A DNA stretch of 38,955 nt, taken from positions 1 to 38,955 of the forward strand of contig JAAYRQ010000135.1 of assembly GCA_012518685.1 (NCBI GenBank). Reading direction: 5' to 3'. The notes beneath the pieces are model-generated. The model saw nothing but the letters and a program-made list of their open reading frames with translations, was not told the DNA's origin and searched no databases. A program made the translations under genes and the position numbers. This DNA comes from Syntrophomonadaceae bacterium. Its GTDB lineage: Bacteria; Bacillota; Syntrophomonadia; Syntrophomonadales; Syntrophomonadaceae. Positions 2,422-25,299 of this stretch are shown piece after piece (positions within the stretch are counted from its first letter, which is position 1; each line of letters begins with the position of its first letter).

Positions 2422-2820
2422 TTAGCAAAATTCGTCTATAAACTCTCTAGGGGTTAAAATTTTAGGTTTTTCTAGCTTCAGCTCCCCAAAATCCTTATCA
2501 CCCGTAATTAATATATCTACATCCTCAATTATAGCCGTATATAATACTGGGTAATCCATCTCATCCCTAATTTCAAAAAGTCCTTCTTGTATTATGTCTG
2601 GGGTATATACTAGTTCAAAGGGAAAAGCCATTAGGAATTCGTCAACATATTTCATCTTATTTTTAAATCTTCTATTGACAACCTGTTTTAGTTCAGAAAC
2701 GACATAAGAGGATAGGACTAATTTATCCTCATTTAGTATTTTTTCAATCATTTTGTTTAAGGTCAAGCTGTTCAAAACAATAGCTGAAATTAATATATTC
2801 GTATCTAACATTATCCTCAT
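2422..2820 (-). CDS. PIN-domain putative toxin (VapC-like ribonuclease)
   Basis: MRIMLDTNILISAIV start, ...ILITGDKDF motif; partner AbrB gene directly upstream. Confidence 0.85.
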   Translation of the reverse strand: MRIMLDTNILISAIVLNSLTLNKMIEKILNEDKLVLSSYVVSELKQVVNRRFKNKMKYVDEFLMAFPFELVYTPDIIQEGLFEIRDEMDYPVLYTAIIEDVDILITGDKDFGELKLEKPKILTPREFIDEFC

Positions 2821-2823
2821 TTT

Positions 2824-3093
2824 TTACTCCTTATTTCTTTCAGCTTGTATTTCTTTTCTAACATCCTTGACTAAATTAACCACATCATCTTCGTTTTTTA
2901 GTCCTAGCCTTTCAGCTTCCCCTGCGAATTCATCTTGAATCTTTTTTAGGGCTAACATGGCTGAATTTGCTATCAACATATTACCGTCTTTTTCTATAAA
3001 TACGACTTTATCGCCTTCTTTAAGATTTAATTTTTTCCTTATATTAACTGGTATGGTCACTTGTCCTTTTGACATTACTTTGGCAATTTCCAT
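2824..3093 (-). CDS. AbrB/MazE-family antitoxin (SpoVT-AbrB domain)
   Basis: MSKGQVTIPVNIRKKLNLKEGDKVVFIEKDG is a classical AbrB swapped-hairpin motif. Confidence 0.9.
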   Translation of the reverse strand: MEIAKVMSKGQVTIPVNIRKKLNLKEGDKVVFIEKDGNMLIANSAMLALKKIQDEFAGEAERLGLKNEDDVVNLVKDVRKEIQAERNKE

Positions 3094-3249: not shown

Positions 3250-6114
3250 TTATTCTACTACTACATAGATTCCCTTTTTATTCGTGGTAAAACTTACCTT
3301 AGCATTAAGTAAGTCCTTAGTAAATGCTTGTGCAAACCACTGACGATAATCCTCATCATAGCGTAAGACTTTAATTCGTTGCCCATCGCTGTTTTGATAG
3401 GGTATTTCTACCTGTGCATAATTAAAATCTATATTTTCTCCGCCTATTTCTATAAAGGGCGATAAAAAGTTACTATTAAGCATGCCCCGCTTTAAAGTAG
3501 GTATTAGACTCGGTTCAGCCCGCCCTAGTCTTAATTCCACCTCATCATTATTATAGGCATTATCATTAGGTTGTAGCTGATAAACTGACACATTCGCCCA
3601 TCGAGAAGTAGTATATAGCCAAGTGGTATTTTGCCAGTTCCTCGGCAACCTAATTTTTCTGACTAAGACATCCTCACCCATTAAGTCATCTAAGTCTAAA
3701 TCTATATAGCTGCTATTGTACCTAGCATTTAAGATTAGAGTATCAGCATTAGTTTTCACTGAGGAGACTACATCCCCCACCCTATATTCCCCTTTTACCC
3801 TAATGCCATCTTCAGGCATGGGCATAGATGATGCCTTAACCACGCTGAAACTGCCGTAAATAGTTTGGCTATATATTTCATTATCATTTTTAATAACTAA
3901 AATATTATATAAACCCGGTTTTAGTTTATCCCTACCCCGAGGTAGAAAAACTTCTAGGTAGTATTTCCCATCTTGCTCCTTTAGCCTAACCTCATAAGCC
4001 TTAATGTCATTGAACTTTACATCAATATTACTGCCTACAAAATAATCACCATAAATTAAAATAGGCTCCCTAACATCATAATCTTCCGCAATACTGCCTA
4101 TAGAGATGTCAGTTATCTGTGGGGAACCAATCGTGCCAAAGCTCCACATAATCAAGTCATTGCCGACCCCTTCAGGATAATATACCAGACCACTAGGTAC
4201 TTCGACATTATAATTAGCCTGAGCTAATAATTTTCTGACTGGAATGTATAGGCTTGCTGTACCTGCCTCTTTTCTAAATAAATATCTTTCAATAAATGCC
4301 TCCCTTTCCTCACTAGTTAATTTTGAGGCATATTCTAATAAATCTCCATCTAGCATAGTCTGCCTACTCCCACCTACGGCAAAAATATCTGTCAAGTGCA
4401 TTTTACCAATTAAGGAAGAATCATAAGTAAGCCCCCCATCATCCGCAAAGACTACCCTTAAAAAGTAGCGTTCCTTACCATTAATCGATTCAGGCTTAAA
4501 TGCTTGCTCATCCACTATTTCCCCTGTGGGATGTAAACTAATTACCTTAGGTTTCTTATATTCCTTGATTGGTTTAATAGTAACTTTTAACCAATCACCC
4601 GTATCGCTTCGCCAAGCAATAACTATTTCCTCTAGCAAGTCCCCACCAGCTAGTAGAGGCACTGGCAGAAAGTCCCCTTCTAAGGTGACTAATTCGGGAT
4701 TTTGCTCCCCAGCCTTAATAATAAAACGCGGATCACTATCTGCTATATTTTCGGGTAGTTCAAATAATAAGTAGCCAGTAGTATTTATGTCATATACTTT
4801 CTGAGCTACTGTCACAAAGCTATCCGCATAATTAAGCCTAATTATGCCCCCACTTTGACTAATTAAATTATCTTTTGTAATAGTAGTAGCATCCTTAGCT
4901 TTTAATTCCCCTGTTGGCACACTTGCATCACTATATATTATTTTAGTATCTGGATGGTATATAGAAGGGTGCAGTTCTAGCTTAGCAGAATATACTTCAG
5001 CCCTTTTGAAGAAATCATCCGTTTTCAAAACAGGTTTAATACTTACCCTTTGCCAAACATTCTCCTCAGCCCCCTCTTCTTGCCAGGCTACTTCTATTTC
5101 TCTATATATAGGATTAGTTTTGGCATTATAAGGAAACTTTTCATTGACTAATAAGGGTACAGCAATGCCTGTATAATCAGTTTCAAAAAAATATGCTTCC
5201 TTGTTTTCTGGCTTGATAATTAACTTACTTATATCTTTTTCCGTTTCAGTTAGGAAAACTATTATTCCATGGTTTTCATAAACAGAATCCTGTACCTTAG
5301 CTAGACTATCCGCATAATTAAGGGTAAGACTAGCAGCTTGCTGCACTAATAAATCTGTGGAAGTTATTTTCAAGGGGGTAGTGGCATCTGCCATGGTTAA
5401 GATACCTGTTTTTCCTCCTATGTCACTGTAAATATTATCATTATCATCATACATTAAGGGGCTTAGCTTTAGATCTGCCGCGGGATGGGTTTTGCTTAAA
5501 ATTGTATCTGCTGACGAGACAGGCAGAATATTAAGTTTTGTCCACCCGTAATTTTGTGTTTCCCAGGCAATAGATATCTCCTGTAGGGGATTATCCTTAT
5601 AATGATGGTCTTTGCTTGTATCTGCGATTAAGGGTATCCACACCCGATTATCATTGGCCTTGTGGGCAGTATAAACACCCTTAATATTAGTTATTAGGTT
5701 AAAATTGCCTTCACCTAGCCTTATATCATTTATTATTATCCCTATTTCCCCATATACTCCATCTGTAATTTCACCTGTATAATAGACACTTTCACTTACC
5801 ACTAATTTACCGATAATGTCCGCATTAGGAACCAGTAATTGTCCTCTGTGGTTTATGTATATTTCTTCAAAATTATAGTCAGTTATATCCGATAGTTCTA
5901 CTATGGTTATTTCGTTATCCATATAAGCAGAGGCAGTTTGCCAGATGTTAGCTAAGTTATCACTAGCCACTGCAGGTGGTAGGGTTCCTATATTTACCAA
6001 GCCCATCATGAAAAAGGCTAGGGTGATTAGGGCTATATATTTGGATTTGATTAGTCGCATAGCTTCAACTCCTAATAAGATTTGTAACTTAATATTAATT
6101 ATCGGGATTCTCAC
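3250..6114 (-). CDS. Large predicted secreted/surface protein with internal tandem modules, unknown function (start may be the internal Met at 6060)
   Basis: 954 aa; MRLIKSKYIALITLAFFMMGLVNIGTLPPAVAS signal peptide-like; recurring ...NYADS... / ...EI.IAW......W.K..I.P. modules. Confidence 0.75.
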   Translation of the reverse strand: MRIPIINIKLQILLGVEAMRLIKSKYIALITLAFFMMGLVNIGTLPPAVASDNLANIWQTASAYMDNEITIVELSDITDYNFEEIYINHRGQLLVPNADIIGKLVVSESVYYTGEITDGVYGEIGIIINDIRLGEGNFNLITNIKGVYTAHKANDNRVWIPLIADTSKDHHYKDNPLQEISIAWETQNYGWTKLNILPVSSADTILSKTHPAADLKLSPLMYDDNDNIYSDIGGKTGILTMADATTPLKITSTDLLVQQAASLTLNYADSLAKVQDSVYENHGIIVFLTETEKDISKLIIKPENKEAYFFETDYTGIAVPLLVNEKFPYNAKTNPIYREIEVAWQEEGAEENVWQRVSIKPVLKTDDFFKRAEVYSAKLELHPSIYHPDTKIIYSDASVPTGELKAKDATTITKDNLISQSGGIIRLNYADSFVTVAQKVYDINTTGYLLFELPENIADSDPRFIIKAGEQNPELVTLEGDFLPVPLLAGGDLLEEIVIAWRSDTGDWLKVTIKPIKEYKKPKVISLHPTGEIVDEQAFKPESINGKERYFLRVVFADDGGLTYDSSLIGKMHLTDIFAVGGSRQTMLDGDLLEYASKLTSEEREAFIERYLFRKEAGTASLYIPVRKLLAQANYNVEVPSGLVYYPEGVGNDLIMWSFGTIGSPQITDISIGSIAEDYDVREPILIYGDYFVGSNIDVKFNDIKAYEVRLKEQDGKYYLEVFLPRGRDKLKPGLYNILVIKNDNEIYSQTIYGSFSVVKASSMPMPEDGIRVKGEYRVGDVVSSVKTNADTLILNARYNSSYIDLDLDDLMGEDVLVRKIRLPRNWQNTTWLYTTSRWANVSVYQLQPNDNAYNNDEVELRLGRAEPSLIPTLKRGMLNSNFLSPFIEIGGENIDFNYAQVEIPYQNSDGQRIKVLRYDEDYRQWFAQAFTKDLLNAKVSFTTNKKGIYVVVE

Positions 6115-6184: not shown

Positions 6185-6206
6185 TTATTTATGATAGGGT
6201 TCATTT
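6185..6206. repeat. 22-bp direct repeat (ttatttatgatagggttcattt), att-like copy distal to rlmH
   Basis: Exact copy of 8790..8811, the last 22 bp of rlmH. Confidence 0.9.
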
Positions 6207-6294
6207 TAATTCTTTTAACCCCATAGATATCAAATATCCTTAATTATTGTTTGTTAAGATAGTTAAAGATACCTTAGTGGGTGCCTTTAAGATC

Positions 6295-6555
6295 TTATTT
6301 TATATTTATTGTACTACATTTAATTCCATTTCTTGTAGAACTGCCTTTGCCCCTACAAGGAGGACACCAACTTTGTATTCCATCTGGGTTATTCTTTGTA
6401 ATTCTATGATCTGTATAACCAAAATCATCACAATGATAGAAGATATGTTCTTCCCCATTGCTAGTAGAACAATTAGGGCAAGATTTTAGTTTCCCATCTA
6501 CACTGTACTGTGCTACTTCGAGAGATCTTAAACATACTTTACAATAACCCACCAT
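6295..6555 (-). CDS. Small Cys-rich zinc-ribbon protein of unknown function in the R-M island
   Basis: 86 aa with C-x2-C, C-x2-C, and C-x2-C pairs (CKVC, CPNC, CPPC). Confidence 0.6.
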   Translation of the reverse strand: MVGYCKVCLRSLEVAQYSVDGKLKSCPNCSTSNGEEHIFYHCDDFGYTDHRITKNNPDGIQSWCPPCRGKGSSTRNGIKCSTINIK

Positions 6556-6591
6556 CTTCCCATCCCCTTTTTTTATATTACTTTTGTAAAT

Positions 6592-7872
6592 CTAAACCTG
6601 CAAACCTAGAATCCAATCAATCCACGCAACAATGGATGATGCCCTCCTATAAAAAGTATCCTCCGATTTTACATTATACAGATTACTGTTCTTCATAATC
6701 TCTACAATTTCCCTTTTCCCCGGCATTTCCCCATCAGTTATACATTTTTTAAATACTTGATTAAATGCTTTATGTTTTAAAATTAACTCCATAAACTTTA
6801 ACTGCCTTGGCTTATATTTTAATCTAAATAGTCTTTGTCCTTCATCAGTTAATGAAAATATTATTTGCCTATTTTCTGTTCTCTTCTGAATCAAACCTAA
6901 GTATCTACCTGCATCAGTATAATAGTTTGTTTGTCTCGGATCGAAATCATAATTTGTGGTAATTTCTTCCCTAGTGAAATCGTTCTCATTTAGCAATTCA
7001 CAAAGATTAATAACCCTTTTGAAGTTATCGGCCTGTGGAAATGGAATCTTTGGCTCTACTATTAATTTTATTTGCTGAAAAACTTGTATTATATCTTCTA
7101 AGCTAATTTCCGTTTGTTCTATACTATAATTTTTCTGTTTTAATAAAATTAGTGAGTTATAATTATTAGGTTCCCCAAAATCATATTCATAGAACGAAAA
7201 AATACCATTAGAATAGGTTAGAAACAAGGATTTAACCTTTTTGCTAATACTATTACTCCACAACCTATAAGGGTAATATAATTGTCTAACTAAGAAATCA
7301 TCTGAAATAGAATTTTTCGCTTCTATAAGTGCTAAGGTTTCCAACCCTTCATAACCCCCATCTATTTCTATTTGGGAGTTAGCAACATTAACACTCACAT
7401 TAGTCTTTGTCCTTGTGTTCATAATATTAAAATTAAAAGAGTTAGAGCTCATTCTGCCACTAACAGTCGGTAAAATCTCCTCATCTCCCATAAAGTCAGC
7501 TAATATACCTGAAACATAAGCACAGTTTAAGGCAGTTGCTTCACTCGTAATATTTTCAAAATCAATACTCTCGATATGGGTTGGAAATGGGAATCTTATT
7601 ACATCTGAATTAATCTCTTCAAAGTTTTTATAAGCCTCAAAGTGTGATATTAAATAGCTTCCTCTTGTAATTGGCAAAATGGACAATTGATTATCCGTAA
7701 ATATTTTAGGTAAGTTCTTCTTATGATCGAACTTAGTCATTAACCTTGCTTCCCTAAACTCGTTGATCTGTTCTGAGGCTATTTCAAAGATGGCGTTTTT
7801 TTCAATATTGTTTAGGATATTATATTTATCAAATAATTCTTTCCAAGCCTTATTGTTTTTTGTATTACTCAT
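6592..7872 (-). CDS. Putative type II restriction endonuclease with C-terminal winged-helix-like region
   Basis: 426 aa; EIDGGYEGLETLALIEAKN resembles PD-(D/E)XK D...ExK; overlaps the downstream end of the adjacent adenine methylase gene by 8 bp. Confidence 0.65.
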   Translation of the reverse strand: MSNTKNNKAWKELFDKYNILNNIEKNAIFEIASEQINEFREARLMTKFDHKKNLPKIFTDNQLSILPITRGSYLISHFEAYKNFEEINSDVIRFPFPTHIESIDFENITSEATALNCAYVSGILADFMGDEEILPTVSGRMSSNSFNFNIMNTRTKTNVSVNVANSQIEIDGGYEGLETLALIEAKNSISDDFLVRQLYYPYRLWSNSISKKVKSLFLTYSNGIFSFYEYDFGEPNNYNSLILLKQKNYSIEQTEISLEDIIQVFQQIKLIVEPKIPFPQADNFKRVINLCELLNENDFTREEITTNYDFDPRQTNYYTDAGRYLGLIQKRTENRQIIFSLTDEGQRLFRLKYKPRQLKFMELILKHKAFNQVFKKCITDGEMPGKREIVEIMKNSNLYNVKSEDTFYRRASSIVAWIDWILGLQV

Positions 7873-8701
7873 AGTTTCTCACCAATACCTCATCAACCTC
7901 TCCCCTCATATCACCTTTTGAATTTATAGCTCGTTTTGCTTGAACGGTTTCTATTTTATAATCTTTATAAAGTTCTTTTATGAAATTAGTTGCTGAGTTA
8001 GAAAGCAAAAATTTTACATCTCTATCATTTAGCTTATCACATAATTTTTTAAGTCTAATCTGCTCATTTCTATCAAATCCACCTTTGTCATACCCTGTAA
8101 AGTTGGAACTATCTGAAACTGGATCATAGGGTGGATCAAAATAAACGAAACTACCCCTTCTTATGCCTTTAACTGCTTCCTCAAAATCACCACATCTAAA
8201 AGTAATATTAGCCTTATTAAAATAATTACTAACAGCCTTTAAGGTTATGGCATTAACAAAGTCAGGATTTTTATATTTTCCAAAAGGAGCATTGAATTCT
8301 CCTTGTTGATTTACCCTAAATAGCCCATTAAAACAAGTCTTATTCAAGTAATGTATTCTTGATGCTCTTTCAATATCCGTTAGTTTCTCATATCTTTCTT
8401 TATCTCGATCAAGTTCCCTTATTTCATAAAAATAATCTGAGGTGTTTTCGTGATTTTGAAGATCCTCGATTAGTTCATCAACATTATCTTTTATAACTTT
8501 ATATAGATTAATTAATTCTTCATTAATGTCATTAACAACTGCCTTTTTTCGTTGTAGATGAAAAAAAACTGCCCCACCACCCAGAAACGGTTCATAGTAT
8601 GTCGATATTTTATCTGGAATGTATTTTTCAATCTCTGGCAATAATTGCCTTTTGCCCCCTACCCATTTAACGACAGGGGCAACAAGTGGATTTCTTTTCA
8701 T
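7865..8701 (-). CDS. DNA adenine methyltransferase, Dam/DpnM (D12 class) family
   Basis: KWVGGKRQLLPEIEKYIP, YYEPFLGGGAVFFHL and FVYFDPPYDPVSDSSNFTGY motifs. Confidence 0.95.
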   Translation of the reverse strand: MKRNPLVAPVVKWVGGKRQLLPEIEKYIPDKISTYYEPFLGGGAVFFHLQRKKAVVNDINEELINLYKVIKDNVDELIEDLQNHENTSDYFYEIRELDRDKERYEKLTDIERASRIHYLNKTCFNGLFRVNQQGEFNAPFGKYKNPDFVNAITLKAVSNYFNKANITFRCGDFEEAVKGIRRGSFVYFDPPYDPVSDSSNFTGYDKGGFDRNEQIRLKKLCDKLNDRDVKFLLSNSATNFIKELYKDYKIETVQAKRAINSKGDMRGEVDEVLVRNYE

Positions 8702-8789
8702 TAAGCTTCCACCCCCATTATTTCTCTTTACATTGTATCAAAAATAGTGAGAAAATAGCACCCTTAATGGATTTTACAAAAATATGAAG

Positions 8790-8811
8790 TTATTTATGAT
8801 AGGGTTCATTT
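8790..8811. repeat. 22-bp direct repeat, 3' end of rlmH
   Basis: Minus-strand AAATGAACCCTATCATAAATAA encodes the ...NEPYHK* terminus of rlmH. Confidence 0.92.
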
Positions 8812-9269
8812 CTTAATATTTTAAAACTTCGATATATCTGCTCTACCAAAATCATAACCGCCATTTGATGTGGAAATGTCATAGCTGAGAAGGAATAAGT
8901 CGCATTAGCCCGCAATTTTACTTCATTAGCCACCCCATAAGAACTGCCGATAATAAATATTAGCCGTTTTTTACCTGATAAATTATACTTTTCTAATTCT
9001 CGAGCGAATTTTATCGAACTTAAAGTCGTGCCTCCTATGTCTAATAGGATAACAATATCGTCTGCAGTAATATTTTTTAGTAGTTTTTGCCCTTCCTTAG
9101 CCAAGGCATTAGTAATTTCCTTTTTATTCGCATTAGGGCTTAGCTTTTCCTCAAAACCATCCACTAATTCCGTAGCCATATAAGGATTAAGCCTTTTTAA
9201 GTATTCATTAATACCTGCTAAATAGAAAGGTTCTCTTATTTTCCCTACTGAATATAGGTAATATTTCAT
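8790..9269 (-). CDS. rlmH: 23S rRNA (pseudouridine1915-N3)-methyltransferase RlmH
   Basis: 159 aa SPOUT protein; [14 protein letters not shown]..., [30 protein letters not shown]. Confidence 0.97.
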   Translation of the reverse strand: [159 protein letters not shown]

Positions 9270-9290
9270 AAAAAACTCCTATTTTCCTTA

Positions 9291-9327
9291 AAAATAAAGC
9301 GTTCCTTAGCTAAGAAACGCCTTTTTA
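9291..9327 (-). terminator. Rho-independent terminator after murA, upstream of rlmH
   Basis: GCGTTTCTTAGCTAAGGAACGC hairpin followed by TTTATTTTT on minus strand. Confidence 0.75.
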
Positions 9328-9343
9328 CTAAATTATTATATTT

Positions 9344-10603
9344 TTAGGAAACTTTCGCTCCAAGGTTAGTCAATTTTTCTCTAACATTTTCATAGCCTCT
9401 AAAGATATGGATGGCATCTTCTATTTTCGTTTCACCCTCAGCAGCCAATGCCGCTAGTATTAAGGCAGCTCCTGCCCGTAAATCAGTAGCCTTAACGGTC
9501 GTGCCGTGCAAGTAATCTACTCCTTCCACTACAGCCGTATGTCCTTCAACCTTAATTTTAGCACCCATCCTTTTTAATTCATCTACTATTTGGAAACGGT
9601 TTTCAAATACATTTTCTACTATTACACTCGGTCCTTCTGCCAAACATAAGAGGGCCATCATCTGTGACTGCATATCAGTAGGAAAACCTGGATAAGGTAG
9701 GGTTTTGATGTCTATAGGATTAATAGCTTGCCCTGCCTTTACGATTAAGCCACTATCTGTATTTTCTACTAAGGCACCTGTTTCTTGTAACTTTGCTATT
9801 ACTGGATGTAAGTGGGTAGGGATAACATTTTCTATCAATATTTCCCCTTTTGTAATTGCGGCTGCTATCATAAAAGTACCTGCCTCAATACGGTCAGGGA
9901 TAATACTGTATCTTCCACCTATTAATTCATCTACCCCTTCTATTTTAATCACATCAGTACCAGCCCCTCTAATCCTAGCTCCCATAGAATTGAGGAAGTT
10001 AGCCAAATCTACTATTTCTGGCTCTTTAGCAGAGTTTTCTATAATCGTAGTACCCTTAGCCTTAGCAGCCATCATGATAATATTCTCTGTGGCTCCTACA
10101 CTAGGAAAATCTAAATAAACACTAGCGCCAGTAGGGTTTTTAGCATTAGCATAGATGTAGCCATGTTCTATCTGTATTTCTGAGCCTAGTGCCTGTACTC
10201 CTTTTATATGCAAATCCATAGGACGAGAACCTATATCACATCCCCCAGGTAGGGAAATAATCGCTTCCTTTTGTCTGCCTAACATGGCCCCTAAGAATAG
10301 GTTAGAGGCCCTTAGCATTTTGGCTAATTCATAAGAAGTCTTAGTTTTTAAAGAACTATTGGGCGGACAAATAGATAGACTGCCATCTGGTCGCCAATGA
10401 GTAGTAACACCGATATCGTTAAGGATTTTGTCCATTATTTCCACATCTCGAATACGGGGCAGGTTATCTAATATAACTTCCCCCTCTGCTAGGATGCTAG
10501 CTGCCATTAATACTAAGCCTGCATTTTTAGCACCACTTACCCGAACCTGTCCTAACAGGGGATAGCCCCCTTCTATTTGTAAAGCACTTAGCAAAATACA
10601 CAC
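9344..10603 (-). CDS. murA: UDP-N-acetylglucosamine 1-carboxyvinyltransferase
   Basis: 419 aa; GYPLLGQVRVSGAKNAGLVLMAASIL, LPGGCDIGSRPMDLHIKG, FPTDMQSQMMAL. Confidence 0.96.
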   Translation of the reverse strand: MCILLSALQIEGGYPLLGQVRVSGAKNAGLVLMAASILAEGEVILDNLPRIRDVEIMDKILNDIGVTTHWRPDGSLSICPPNSSLKTKTSYELAKMLRASNLFLGAMLGRQKEAIISLPGGCDIGSRPMDLHIKGVQALGSEIQIEHGYIYANAKNPTGASVYLDFPSVGATENIIMMAAKAKGTTIIENSAKEPEIVDLANFLNSMGARIRGAGTDVIKIEGVDELIGGRYSIIPDRIEAGTFMIAAAITKGEILIENVIPTHLHPVIAKLQETGALVENTDSGLIVKAGQAINPIDIKTLPYPGFPTDMQSQMMALLCLAEGPSVIVENVFENRFQIVDELKRMGAKIKVEGHTAVVEGVDYLHGTTVKATDLRAGAALILAALAAEGETKIEDAIHIFRGYENVREKLTNLGAKVS

Positions 10604-10611
10604 CTCTCGCC

Positions 10612-11450
10612 CTAATAGTTTTTTTCTAACATATTATAAAAATCATTAATAAATGTATGATACTTTTTACCTGTAGCCTTTTCTAGGGCATTTGCCATAG
10701 AATTACCTTGACCTAAATATTCCAAGGTTAAAAAAATTTTGTCCTCACCATAATTATCTACCAAATACTCTACTAATTGCAAGGATTCCCAATAAGCTAT
10801 GGATTGATCTAATTTATCGAAACTTTTTTCTAAGTCTTTTATCTCATAATAGTTAAAGGGTTTCCCTTAACAAAAGGATTATCGAACTGAAAACTAGTCA
10901 CCCTTTTTTCTACATACTGGGCAACCCCTTCTGTCCACCAACGATTATAGTTGCCCTTAGTAAGGTCATCAATTAATAAATGAGCAAATTCATGCACCAT
11001 AGGTCCTTCTCTGTAAAATTCATCCTCTAGCTTATAAGTAAGCCAAGCCCCAGGTGATAATATACGGATAGAACCCGCCCAATACACCCCCATAGCTTGT
11101 TCATTCTTATCCCAACCAAAACTTTGAGCCAAGCTTTCGGTATCAGGATACACTACAATGGTAGTCTTCTTGTCTGGACTATAGGCGAATATCCTAGTCA
11201 CTTCTAGATAGCTTCTATCAGCTGCGGCAGCTATTTCATCAATATATTGAATATCTTCGTCACTATACTTAATTATGAAATACTCTGATTCAACGGTATT
11301 AAAGCTAGCCGTTCGCCAACTAATTTCTTGTCCTACCATAGCCCGCATTACAGCTTGACTATTTTTAGTAATAATGAACAAAATTATTAAGCCTATTATT
11401 AAAATTAAGCCTAATGCCTTGGGTGAACTGATATCTCTTATCCCCAACAT
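10612..11450 (-). pseudogene. Peptidase MA-like zinc metallohydrolase (HEFAHLLIDD) interrupted by a -1 frame change near 10857-10863
   Basis: Annotated ORF stops at 10839; the -1 frame continues as KPFNYYEIKDLEKSFDKLDQSIAYWESLQLVEYLVDNYGEDKIFLTLEYLGQGNSMANALEKATGKKYHTFINDFYNMLEKNY* to 10612. Confidence 0.75.
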
Positions 11451-11520
11451 AACATATCACTCCCCTTAGTAATTAATTATACTATCAATCATCTAAGGAA
11501 AGGATAAGTAAATAATGGTA

Positions 11521-12429
11521 CTATTCTTTGAGATATTCTGTTACTGCCATACCTGCTACAACCCCGTCACCTACGGCAGTTGCTACCTGTCTAGCAGTTT
11601 TAACCCTAATATCGCCTGCAGCATATACCCCAGGCACAGCAGTTTCCATATTTTCATTAGTAGGGATATAGCCATCTACGGTTTCTAAAAAGCCTGCTAA
11701 AAATTCTGTAGCTGGCACTAATCCTATGCTGACAAAGACCCCTTCTACGGATAGATCTTCCTCTTGCCCAGTATTAACATCTTTTAAAACCAGACTTTCC
11801 ATAAGGCTATCACCTTTTATACTGCTTACAACCTTATTAAGCTTTAATTCTATATTATTAGTAACCTTCATCTTGTCTATGGCAGTTTGATTAGCCCTAA
11901 AGCCTTCCCTGCGGTGTACCAAATACACCTTATCGGCAATATCTGCTAAATACAAAGCCTCCTTAACCGCTGAATCCCCACCACCTATTACTGCTACCTT
12001 AGCATTCCCAAAAAAAGCACCATCACAAGTAGCACAATAAGACACACCGCGACCGATAAACTCATCCTCGCCTAACACTCCTAACTCTCGTCGCTTAGCA
12101 CCTACGGCTATAATAATCGCCCTAGTCAAATACTCTTTACCAGAGCTAGTAATGATTTTCTTACCTTCAGCTACCTCTTCTATACTAGCGACTTCATCCA
12201 TCTCTATTTCCGTTCCGAACCTTTCAGCTTGTTTACGGAAATCCTCCATTAAATCAACCCCATTAACTCCAAAAGGAAAACCAGGATAATTATCTATTAA
12301 GTCAGTCTGGGCTGTATTCCCTCCTATTACACCCTTTTCTAGGATGAGGGTTTTTAACTTAGCCCTACCTGTATAAATAGCAGCACTAAAGCCTGCGGCT
12401 CCACTTCCTATTATTATAACATCATACAT
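11521..12429 (-). CDS. trxB: Thioredoxin-disulfide reductase
   Basis: 302 aa; GSGAAGFSAAIYTGRA, CATCDGAFF redox motif, VPGVYAAGDIR. Confidence 0.96.
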   Translation of the reverse strand: MYDVIIIGSGAAGFSAAIYTGRAKLKTLILEKGVIGGNTAQTDLIDNYPGFPFGVNGVDLMEDFRKQAERFGTEIEMDEVASIEEVAEGKKIITSSGKEYLTRAIIIAVGAKRRELGVLGEDEFIGRGVSYCATCDGAFFGNAKVAVIGGGDSAVKEALYLADIADKVYLVHRREGFRANQTAIDKMKVTNNIELKLNKVVSSIKGDSLMESLVLKDVNTGQEEDLSVEGVFVSIGLVPATEFLAGFLETVDGYIPTNENMETAVPGVYAAGDIRVKTARQVATAVGDGVVAGMAVTEYLKE

Positions 12430-12520
12430 AGTTAATACTCCTTTCTTAGTAAGCCTTTTTACAACTTAATGTAACTCACTCTATTATGTGTAACTTTTTA
12501 CTATTTTACTAGCAAACAGA

Positions 12521-12550
12521 AAAACCCTGACCCTATGCGGTCAGGGTTTT
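12521..12550. terminator. Strong bidirectional Rho-independent terminator
   Basis: aaaaccctgacc-ctatgc-ggtcagggtttt perfect 12-bp stem. Confidence 0.9.
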
Positions 12551-12559
12551 AATTATCTT

Positions 12560-13909
12560 CTAACGCAGATATGATAAGGGGTTTTTAAAGCTACCACCTG
12601 CTAAGACCTCAAAATGCAAGTGGGGTCCCGAGCTTCTACCTGTAGAACCCACTGTAGCAATATTTTCTCCCTTCACAACCCTTTGTCCAGTTGAAACATT
12701 AATACTATTACAATGGGCATATCTTGTAACTATGCCGTTACCGTGGTCAACAATAACAAAATTGCCATATCCACCTTGCCAACCTGTAAAGGTAACATAA
12801 CCCGAATCAGCAGCTCTAATAGGAGAACCTAATTTTGTAGCTATATCTATGGCAGTATGTGCACTTCTATACCCATTAGTAATACTGCCCGAGGTCGGCC
12901 AATCCAAAGCCCCTGAACCTACTACTGGGGAGCCACCACGGGAAGCAACTGTTACGGCACTACCTTTGACGATAATTTTGTCTATCGCCTTTTCTAAAAC
13001 AGTTTCTTTCGTGATTTCCCTTTCTTCAATAATTCCATTTATTTTAGTTGCTTTATAGGCTATTTGTTTTTGCCCATCCTTGCCATTTTGCTTAATCCTA
13101 ATAGTGGTCGTCGAATTTTTGTCGGTTTCTACTACAGTCTCAAAAGGAATGGCTTCTACCTTTTCCCCCTCTACCTTAGCCATAACATTAAGATATGGCT
13201 TGCTTTTAACTAAAATTAGTTCCTGTCCTAAGGATAAGTCCTCTTTAGTTAAGCTATTGGCTTTAACTATTTCATCCACATACATATCATTGCGACGAGC
13301 TATAAGCCATAAGGAATCGCCTTCTTCGACTATGTATTTTTCGGGATTTTTAGTGCCAGTAGTAATTAAGGTATAAGCGTCTTCTGGAGACATTACCTCG
13401 TCAACTTCCACCATTTTTTCAACTATTTTTACCTTTTCCACAAAAGCTAATTCGACTAGCTTTTCACCTTCATCTTGTTCTTCATAAGTGCTTTTGATTT
13501 CTTTTAGCAGCTTTTCGGCTTGGGCACTGTTAGTTACATAAGCAATAGCTTCCCCTTTTACTTCTAAGCCAACTGCCATAGTTTTAAACTTCAAGATTTG
13601 CTGGAACTCTTTTTCCAAATCAGCCGTCTTAATAATAGCTGACTTTTTAACTAGGCTTCTTTTAAATTCAATATTATTAGCTAGTTCTAGTTTCTTAGCA
13701 CAGTTTTTCTCTTCAGCCAGCTTGATTTCATTAATAGTTTTTTCAGCCTGGCTTTTATTAGTAACTGCAAACTTCTTCTCACCATCAACTACTACTGAAC
13801 AAGCTGGGGTCTTAAAAACAAAGGCCCATAATAAGCTAGCTATTAAAACTAAGCTAATACCTATAATAATAGGAGTAAGTCTAGCTTTATTCTGCATTAA
13901 ATATTCCAT
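12560..13909 (-). CDS. M23-family peptidoglycan endopeptidase with LysM and G5-like domains
   Basis: YIVEEGDSLWLIARRNDMYVDEIVKANSL (LysM); HTAIDIATKLGSPIRAADSGYV...GRSSGPHLHFEVL (M23). Confidence 0.93.
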   Translation of the reverse strand: MEYLMQNKARLTPIIIGISLVLIASLLWAFVFKTPACSVVVDGEKKFAVTNKSQAEKTINEIKLAEEKNCAKKLELANNIEFKRSLVKKSAIIKTADLEKEFQQILKFKTMAVGLEVKGEAIAYVTNSAQAEKLLKEIKSTYEEQDEGEKLVELAFVEKVKIVEKMVEVDEVMSPEDAYTLITTGTKNPEKYIVEEGDSLWLIARRNDMYVDEIVKANSLTKEDLSLGQELILVKSKPYLNVMAKVEGEKVEAIPFETVVETDKNSTTTIRIKQNGKDGQKQIAYKATKINGIIEEREITKETVLEKAIDKIIVKGSAVTVASRGGSPVVGSGALDWPTSGSITNGYRSAHTAIDIATKLGSPIRAADSGYVTFTGWQGGYGNFVIVDHGNGIVTRYAHCNSINVSTGQRVVKGENIATVGSTGRSSGPHLHFEVLAGGSFKNPLSYLR

Positions 13910-14011
13910 AATTAATAATACTCTCCATAAATATTTAATATTTTAATCAATTTCTTTTATTCTATGTCTAATCTTAAAATTCCTGCTTATAAAATAACTT
14001 TCAACAAATAT

Positions 14012-15382
14012 TTAGCCGATTTGTTTAAGTAAATCTAAAAAAATCGCACCTTCTAGTCTGTTTTTATGCATAATACAGGAAATATTATCAGGCTTATTTA
14101 AAGAATTAGTCGCTTTTAAATTATTAGCGTGACAACCACCTCCACAAAAAAATCTCGCCCAACATCTTTGACATTCTGCTTTATTAGCTAAAGTATGCTG
14201 ACTAAAGATGTTTTTAATATTATTGTCTAGGGACCTGTCAATAACATTCCCCATATAATAATCCTTTTCCCCGACGAATTGATGACAAGGATATATATCA
14301 CCTTCGGGGGTAACTACTATATATTCAACCCCTGCCCCGCAACCAGTCTGTCTTTTTGCGATACAGGGACCTTTTTGCAAGTTAAGATTATAATGAAAAA
14401 AACTAATCTCTTGTCCTGCCCTATAATATTCTAATAGTTTTTTAGTAAGATTATCATATTCAGCTAATACTTGGGGTAAGTCTTCCTCCCTAATAGCATA
14501 TTCATCATCACCTATGGCAGGTTCTAAGGATAAAGAGTTAAAGCCTAAATCAACTATATGTGCTAAGTCTTGACTAAAATCAAGATTATCCCTAGTAAAA
14601 GTACCTCTAATATAGTAGCTACTAGGATTACGGTTCAGCATTTCTTTAAAATTAGGCAATATCGTATTATAGGTACCTTCACCCTCGGGGGTTACCCGAT
14701 TCCTATCATTAGTTTCTGGTCTGCCATCCAGACTTAAAATTATACTTATGTTTTCAGTTATTATGTAATCTATAATCTCTTCATCTAATAAAACCCCATT
14801 AGTAGTTAGGGTAAAATTAAAAACCTTATCCGTATTTTGCTCGATTTCCCTAGCATAGCTTACGATTTCCTTTACTACCGCAAAATTAAGTAAGGGTTCC
14901 CCACCGAAAAAATCCACTTCTAAGTTCCTTATCCCCTTACTTTCCTGCACTAAAAAGTCTATCGCCCTTTTGCCGATTTCAAAAGGCATTAAGGCAGGCT
15001 TCTGCCCAAAATTACCCTGACTAGCAAAACAATACTTACACCTTAAATTACATAAATGAGCTATATTTAAACATACAGCCTTAACTGTCATCTGGCTATA
15101 ATCAATATATTCATTACAAGGCTCCGTAAATATAGCCCCATCTCCATAGGTTATTAACAACTCTTCCATGACCTTAAAGGCTTCCTCACCATACTTAAAA
15201 GTACAAAATTCCAAAGCTCGGTAAAAGTCGCCTTCATACTTAATTAAATTATTAATATAAGCAAAAGCTATTTCATCTAATAAATGAATGGCACCACTAT
15301 TAACATCTAGTAGTATATTATAGTCTTCATATTGGTACAAATGGATATTAGCAGTAAAATCATATCCTGCCAAACTATGCAT
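14012..15382 (-). CDS. scfB: SCIFF-peptide maturase: radical SAM/SPASM thioether-forming enzyme
   Basis: CNLRCKYCFASQG (CX3CX2C), SPASM-type Cys clusters ...CGAGVEYIVVTPEGDIYPCHQFVG...CQRCWARFFCGGGC; adjacent SCIFF precursor. Confidence 0.93.
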   Translation of the reverse strand: MHSLAGYDFTANIHLYQYEDYNILLDVNSGAIHLLDEIAFAYINNLIKYEGDFYRALEFCTFKYGEEAFKVMEELLITYGDGAIFTEPCNEYIDYSQMTVKAVCLNIAHLCNLRCKYCFASQGNFGQKPALMPFEIGKRAIDFLVQESKGIRNLEVDFFGGEPLLNFAVVKEIVSYAREIEQNTDKVFNFTLTTNGVLLDEEIIDYIITENISIILSLDGRPETNDRNRVTPEGEGTYNTILPNFKEMLNRNPSSYYIRGTFTRDNLDFSQDLAHIVDLGFNSLSLEPAIGDDEYAIREEDLPQVLAEYDNLTKKLLEYYRAGQEISFFHYNLNLQKGPCIAKRQTGCGAGVEYIVVTPEGDIYPCHQFVGEKDYYMGNVIDRSLDNNIKNIFSQHTLANKAECQRCWARFFCGGGCHANNLKATNSLNKPDNISCIMHKNRLEGAIFLDLLKQIG

Positions 15383-25201: not shown

Positions 25202-25299
25202 TGGCGGAGGCGTGTGCGAATCGAACACACCAACGACAGGATCACTGCCGCACGGCTGGATTTGAAGTCCAGGCGGCCCACCAGGACCGATCCGCCTCC
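25202..25299 (-). tRNA. selC: tRNA-Sec (UCA anticodon), 98 nt, CCA encoded
   Basis: GGAGGCGGATCGGTCCTGGTGGGCCGCCTGGACTTCAAATCCAGCCGTGCGGCAGTGATCCTGTCGTTGGTGTGTTCGATTCGCACACGCCTCCGCCA; CTGGACTTCAAATCCAG anticodon arm, long variable arm. Confidence 0.97.

Follow-up and report, generated by a model that had tools for sequence, protein, structure and literature searches.

How did a small set of restriction genes come to lie directly behind rlmH, enclosed by two copies of the end of that gene, in the genome of a Syntrophomonadaceae bacterium? The 38,955-nt stretch of DNA analyzed here (hereafter the window; contig 78 of a 188-contig, 1.93-Mb host assembly, GCA_012518685.1) contains, next to rlmH, a 2.6-kb islet with genes for a predicted adenine DNA methyltransferase (MTase), a predicted Type II restriction endonuclease (REase) and a small zinc-ribbon protein. 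An initial annotation had compared this locus with the staphylococcal cassette chromosome (SCC) and proposed site-specific integration at rlmH, a view that is supported by a same-site unit in Tissierella praeacuta and by recurring arrays of rlmH tails in the phylum. We consider it likely, with good confidence, that the islet is a non-autonomous SCC-like element of the pseudo-SCC type, inserted site-specifically at the 3′ end of rlmH, the enzyme most likely being of the Ccr type and acting in trans.

The rlmH-tail repeat and a related unit in Tissierella praeacuta

The initial annotation had reported an exact second copy of the final 22 bp of rlmH at the far end of the islet, and both copies were recovered: AAATGAACCCTATCATAAATAA occurred exactly twice in the window, each time on the minus strand (Table 1), and found no match in 100 dinucleotide shuffles even when 3 mismatches were allowed. 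The islet begins directly behind the rlmH stop codon, in agreement with the integration of SCC at the 3′ end of this gene, and the TATCATAA core is present in both copies, as in the direct repeats that contain the SCC integration site. The 15-bp core is found a third time in the genome, on contig 8, where it sits within a queD-like reading frame and was set aside as chance.

When 84,980 species genomes were queried with the endonuclease, a single close relative emerged, encoded by Tissierella praeacuta DSM 18095 (92% amino acid identity). In this organism the MTase, REase and zinc-ribbon genes (93%, 92% and 90% nucleotide identity, respectively) all lie downstream of its own rlmH. Homology between the window and the Tissierella unit reached 91% at the nucleotide level over 2,584 bp, and it extended ungapped through the distal tail copy TATCATAARTAAT and ended there, with unrelated flanks outside the unit and only 40% identity between the two rlmH genes. 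The Tissierella unit likewise had no recombinase. That two distant hosts have this unit at rlmH, with an identical set of genes and a shared distal boundary, free of a recombinase and between unrelated flanks, is hard to explain without site-specific integration. The islet thus very probably moves by site-specific insertion, even though it encodes no enzyme for this. Substitutions between the two units fell mainly on the third position of codons (MTase, 44 of 61; REase, 73 of 104), a concentration which indicates that both genes have been under selection since divergence and that the restriction-modification (R-M) genes have been kept functional.

The 11-kb Tissierella contig carries, in order, rlmH; genes of a MntA/HepT-type toxin-antitoxin (TA) system and an ARMT1-like gene; an rlmH 3′ relic (3374-3668); the MTase, REase and zinc-ribbon genes; and the distal tail GAACCTTATCATAAGTAA. 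The MntA/HepT-type pair and the ARMT1-like gene form a second islet ahead of the relic (L146, 1252-3668), making this locus a composite array.

Genes of the islet and its host

Three compact, co-directional open reading frames (ORFs) fill nearly all of the 2.6 kb between the repeats, and their first reading as an adenine methylase, a PD-(D/E)XK-like protein and a zinc-ribbon ORF was borne out by Pfam and PADLOC matches and by motif conservation. The best PDB match of the MTase was M.DpnII (2dpm, 3.5e-82), and GATC specificity is predicted from this similarity alone. The REase, whose start overlaps the MTase stop, carries the motif D171 ... E184-A-K186 together with Q197, all invariant in 11 homologs, and an MTase gene lies beside it in 10 of 12 homologous loci, the remaining 2 being truncated or split REase fragments; because of this invariance and adjacency, we read the 426-aa protein as a nuclease, and the pair thus combines the adjacent, jointly conserved genes and conserved nuclease motif of a Type II R-M system. 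By sequence, the REase matched no solved restriction enzyme or solved homolog, and its single-sequence AlphaFold model was unusable (predicted local distance difference test 41). The islet resembles R-M systems of the DpnII/MboI type (GATC) in having an MTase-REase pair whose MTase is nearest to M.DpnII among solved structures, but its REase falls in a separate family (DUF6996/6997/7226, PADLOC PDLC03513) and not in the DpnII nuclease family. The zinc-ribbon ORF was 88% identical in Tissierella and absent beside the more distant REase homologs examined.

That neither ccrA/B/C nor any other integrase lies inside had also been stated at the outset, and the islet ORF list and a recombinase profile search indeed returned no recombinase ORF or recombinase fragment between the repeats. 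Without the internal ccr gene complex, the islet is not SCC proper. A phage or plasmid vector was considered as its source and rejected, as no record spanned most of the islet (plasmids held partial MTase/REase matches only, phages the MTase only); no relatives of the islet were found in viral contigs.

Table 1. Positions in the window of the islet, its boundaries and the target gene
Feature	Position	Strand	Evidence
rlmH, host target gene	8790..9269	minus	intact, ends ...NEPYHK*; Pfam SPOUT_MTase 7e-50, NCBIfam RlmH
Proximal attachment (att) copy, last 22 bp of rlmH, AAATGAACCCTATCATAAATAA, includes TATCATAA	8790..8811	minus	exact repeat
Islet left end, non-coding	8702..8789	minus	Tissierella homology from ~8758
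Dam/DpnM-like D12-class N6-adenine DNA methyltransferase	7865..8701	minus	Pfam MethyltransfD12 2e-76, TIGR00571 1e-97
Type II restriction endonuclease, 426 aa, DUF6996-DUF6997-DUF7226	6592..7872	minus	PADLOC REase_II 5e-128; Pfam
Small zinc-ribbon ORF, 86 aa, possible third islet gene	6295..6555	minus	Zn_ribbon_8 below cut-off
Element-side half of distal site	6207..6260	minus	conserved with Tissierella in alignment
Distal att copy, exact 22-bp rlmH tail, right islet end	6185..6206	minus	Tissierella homology stops there

The GC content of the islet was 31.6%, compared to 36.0% in the remaining window. GATC occurred 60 times versus 152 expected (ratio 0.40) in 65 kb of host DNA (the window, L004 and L036) and 10 times versus 9 expected (1.1) in the islet. 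The lower GC content and the GATC contrast fit a foreign origin, although the numbers are small, and the depletion in host DNA is compatible with, but no proof of, GATC specificity of the R-M pair.

A search of the host assembly for recombinases, suggested in the initial annotation, yielded one large serine recombinase and two tyrosine recombinases. The former, the only one of its kind in the 188 contigs, overlaps the tmRNA gene on contig 169, not rlmH: it is a 542-aa CcrB-like enzyme (L036, 212-2596) whose gene is convergent with the 3′ end of the tmRNA gene and adjoins two small genes resembling a RelE/ParE-type TA pair, and the locus probably represents an island targeted to ssrA, with a recombinase of the kind described below for rlmH sites. 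As a mobilizer of the islet this enzyme was rejected, its target most likely being ssrA and evidence for action on rlmH being absent. The tyrosine recombinases (304 and 314 aa) would, by size alone, be XerC and XerD.

In the suggested comparison with empty sites, 38 loci of family and order relatives that include the rlmH end, each examined over 0.4-19 kb downstream, showed no convincing duplicate tail, only two isolated tail hits with 2 mismatches, so the repeat is not a family-wide feature. These relatives are single-tailed, but their downstream gene order is not conserved, and a strict empty site within the family was therefore not established. One genome with two rlmH tails on two contigs (G075) had two full rlmH genes and no islet, and is likely a mixed bin.

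Directly downstream of the distal att copy, positions 3250-6114 encode a protein of 954 aa that has an apparent signal sequence but matches nothing in Pfam or NCBIfam, and about 3 kb past this copy lies an AbrB-type antitoxin and PIN-domain toxin pair (2422-3093), with no further rlmH-tail copy bounding it. A tRNA-Sec gene at 25202-25299 of the window makes selenocysteine use likely in the host, and in-frame TGA codons may accordingly be read through.

rlmH-tail islets across the phylum

When a degenerate rlmH tail (GARCCNTAYCAYAARTRR) was searched in 399 genomes of the phylum, 11 other genomes showed two to three tandem, same-strand tails spaced 1-12 kb apart, nearly all starting at rlmH, and an order-level sample added about 30 further loci with rlmH-tail arrays. 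The delimited set comprised 42 loci (the window, Tissierella and 40 others) with 51 tail-bounded islets; this survey leaves out spacings above ~18 kb, and the recombinase profile built for it may miss fragments. Thirty-six of the 51 islets had no recombinase and a median length below 4 kb, 27 of them measuring 0.8-4.8 kb, and the other 15 carried a CcrB-like large serine recombinase and spanned 5.0-17.4 kb, some with R-M genes (L112). The rlmH-adjacent recombinases had CcrB as their best NCBIfam match (7e-94 in L112; 1.5e-114 in L135, where the gene runs convergently into the rlmH tail), and since their scores are far under the family cut-offs, we refer to them as CcrB-like rather than CcrB.

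In the order of G198 (L171-L200), the rlmH tail pattern was present in 146 of 151 genomes, about half of them with at least two copies, and rlmH is a major island site in this order. Tail sites were also seen far from rlmH, several per genome and with or without (A)CGG (L118-L120 in G083; L122, L123, L128-L130; L132 in G409), possibly as ectopic integrations or circle-derived copies.

Tail copies outside rlmH usually had (A)CGGT directly before GAACC: CGG stood at -4..-2 in 32 of 51 distal copies but in only 3 of 42 first copies, and those 3 had no rlmH-like upstream sequence. With ACCGTA, (A)CGGT forms the dyad TACGGT-GA-ACCGTA, and several subtypes had longer att arms (AAAACCTCATTT...ATGAGGTTTT, TTTTTGCCTCTTAA...AGGCAAAAA, GTTTACC...TGGTAAA). 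The att sites of SCC and of the Enterococcus cassette chromosome (ECC) were described as having a TATCATAA core with inverted repeats or dyad symmetry (PMC6222049), and the layout of many rlmH islets, with dyad arms around this core, matches that description. Where the initial annotation had left the relation to SCC as convergent or related, these arms and the CcrB matches at rlmH favor relatedness over convergence. Common arms of the other islets (for example AAAACCTCA...TGAGGTTTT) were absent at the window islet, which showed only an imperfect 8-bp dyad in the element-side half of its distal site (ATGGGGTT/AACCCTAT; Tissierella counterpart ATAAGGTT/AACCTTAT), weak and recognized by eye. The distal site reads ACGGTGAACC in Tissierella and AAAATGAACC in the window, the latter in agreement with the window's own rlmH; exact tail repeats were not rare, occurring in 9 of 51 islets.

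Inspection of other genomes for different cargo at rlmH, a further suggestion of the first reading, revealed tail-bounded islets of varied content. Recombinase-free islets contained Thoeris ThsA/ThsB with a TIR protein (L106), a single AbiU/AIPR gene (L107), a NERD nuclease (L108), Hachiman HamA/HamB (L110), GmrSD-type genes (L111), DarTG (L113), RhuM-family genes that are PADLOC candidates (L179, L190) and RES toxin-type genes (L188), and other islets held transporters, a GGDEF protein and nitroreductase-like genes, so that the cargo is mixed. The longest protein gave a convincing PADLOC match in 7 of 24 non-redundant small islets, compared to 0 of 20 single-copy rlmH neighborhoods (1 of 20 if a sigma-54 ATPase cross-match is included; one-sided Fisher test, P = 0.009, or 0.011 when cross-matches are included for islets and controls alike). 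Because other taxa supplied the 20 control neighborhoods and a control at the same locus yielded 1 match in 10, an enrichment of small rlmH islets in defense systems is suggestive only. In L113 (G172, 7671-15247), two rlmH copies, one possibly frameshifted, surround the 7.1-kb DarT and DarG islet, and an additional 0.8-kb tail-bounded islet carries two small MazEF-like genes.

Origin and significance of the islet

Several observations weigh against site-specific integration of the window islet. The proximal ends of the two units differ, with ~32 bp (window) versus 1.2 kb (Tissierella) between the rlmH stop or relic and the start of homology, so only the distal boundary coincides exactly, and more distant REase homologs (52-72% identity) in the sampled genomes were not near rlmH tails, which indicates that the R-M pair moves by other routes too. 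The host genome yielded no recombinase that targets rlmH, the data compared held no same-genus empty-site allele, and in the relative G013 an acyl-CoA ligase gene lies at most 7 kb downstream of rlmH but in opposite orientation. The window's distal site has AAAAT where (A)CGGT is usual and lacks the long flanking arms, which may reflect drift in a copy that is old and has lost its mobility, or else a recombinase of another subtype. With the half-site of most other islets missing, present-day mobility is doubtful, and the islet is possibly immobile today.

Rather than arriving without a recombinase, the R-M genes could be what is left between the att sites of an autonomous SCC-like element that integrated and then lost its ccr-like gene. 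The recombinase-bearing rlmH islets (15 of 51), some with R-M genes, the apparent age of the window's degenerate distal site and the att-bearing remnants reported in Enterococcus (PMC6222049) all speak for such a history; nevertheless, the Tissierella copy is also recombinase-free, which would require loss before spread or loss twice, the 2.6 kb are nearly filled by three compact genes with no recombinase fragment among them, and recombinase-free islets form the small end of a size range in which no recombinase-bearing islet was shorter than 5.0 kb. We therefore regard loss of the recombinase as possible but less likely. Placement of the R-M genes by homologous recombination or transformation, the repeat being a by-product of a tandem duplication of the rlmH end, would accord with longer rlmH duplications at such loci (the Tissierella relic and the two rlmH copies in L113). 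It is very unlikely, however, given a repeat of only 22 bp in the window, rlmH-tail boundaries that recur in many unrelated hosts, and the lack of a recombination substrate between the window and Tissierella, whose rlmH genes are 40% identical and for which no shared flanking DNA outside the att copies was found.

Exact identity blocks of 22 bp are of typical length for tyrosine-integrase overlaps, and dyad arms of the serine type, present at other rlmH sites, are missing from the window site; a tyrosine recombinase that integrates at the rlmH 3′ end, as in tRNA-type or guaA-type islands, would accommodate both features. We nonetheless judge this route unlikely: the recombinases adjoining rlmH tails in the survey were large serine recombinases (no systematic search for tyrosine integrases beside rlmH was made), the two tyrosine recombinases of the host resemble XerC/D, if by size only, and TATCATAA is the Ccr core (PMC6222049). 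That the repeat arose by chance next to a normal chromosomal R-M operon, conceivable in AT-rich, low-complexity sequence whose 15-bp core does occur once elsewhere in the genome, is in effect refuted by the shuffles (0 of 100) and by the same boundary in Tissierella.

For the preferred pseudo-SCC-type islet, we infer a trans-acting enzyme and a circular intermediate. The 2.6-kb unit of Type II R-M and zinc-ribbon genes would join the last codons of rlmH (attB) via its own matching att site, the rlmH tail being replaced by an equivalent one (...EPYHK*), which would leave rlmH coding-intact and displace the old tail to the distal att position. The enzyme would most likely be a Ccr-type large serine recombinase from a larger element that targeted rlmH and is no longer present, a type preferred because of the site homology and the recombinases found at the same site elsewhere. 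In the predicted circle junction of the window unit, TATCATAAATAA would be joined to CTTCATATTTTTG, and excision would restore an rlmH junction of TATCATAAATAA followed by the distal flank TTCTGGCTATTTACC. The MTase and REase probably serve in restriction defense of the host and may also stabilize the islet as an addiction module through post-segregational killing.

Ccr-less pseudo-SCC elements are known at orfX/rlmH in staphylococci, and the islet has the rlmH site and att repeats and lacks ccr and mec, as in their definition (PMC6243372). It shares with pseudo-SCC and SCC composite islands the rlmH 3′ target, the TATCATAA direct repeats, the absence of a recombinase and conflict cargo including R-M, alone or in tandem, and differs from pseudo-SCC in belonging to another Bacillota class, in its 2.6-kb size, in having no SCC-homologous regions and in att arms unlike the common Ccr type (PMC6243372). 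SCC-like elements downstream of rlmH were described in many Bacillota in 2023, in tandem composites and with conflict cargo including R-M, their second end being located through its agreement with the final ~12 bp of rlmH (PMC10061031). These composites, CcPol elements of the type of Bebel et al., resemble the window islet in position, rlmH-tail repeat, tandem arrangement and R-M cargo, but they carry genes for a polymerase and single-stranded DNA-binding protein (Pol-SSB), a helicase and a site-specific (large serine) recombinase, none of which is among the three islet ORFs. ECC, reported in 2018 (~32 kb, ccrAB, ~50-bp att repeats; PMC6222049), is similar in its rlmH 3′-end target, TATCATAA core, att dyad symmetry and variable cargo, whereas the islet has 2.6 kb, a 22-bp repeat and no ccr. 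SCC-like rlmH elements in Bacillota and tandem composites with conflict genes are thus already published (PMC10061031, PMC6222049); what sets the window islet apart is the lineage of its host, the presence of one recombinase-free unit in separate lineages, and its small size class. A literature search, with most subscription journals outside its reach, found no paper that treats recombinase-free islets with a single system as a size class or describes them in syntrophic Clostridia.

A recombinase-free R-M unit at one att site in two distant hosts constitutes a natural experiment, and its occurrence in both argues that SCC-type integration can spread small defense modules that have no ccr of their own. 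We tentatively entertain the further possibility that rlmH in Bacillota supports a cassette economy, in which recombinase-free units of 0.8-5 kb, each with one conflict system and one att site, are captured, stacked and exchanged between distant lineages by the Ccr-type recombinases of larger elements. If true, such an economy would be functionally integron-like, with a serine recombinase and a coding-neutral gene end as its basis, and the window islet would be a cassette shared with Tissierella. If the small size class holds, the 3′ ends of rlmH would form a catalog of defense and TA systems, including unknown ones, delimited to the base pair, and this catalog would cover genomes in which SCC has not been looked for.

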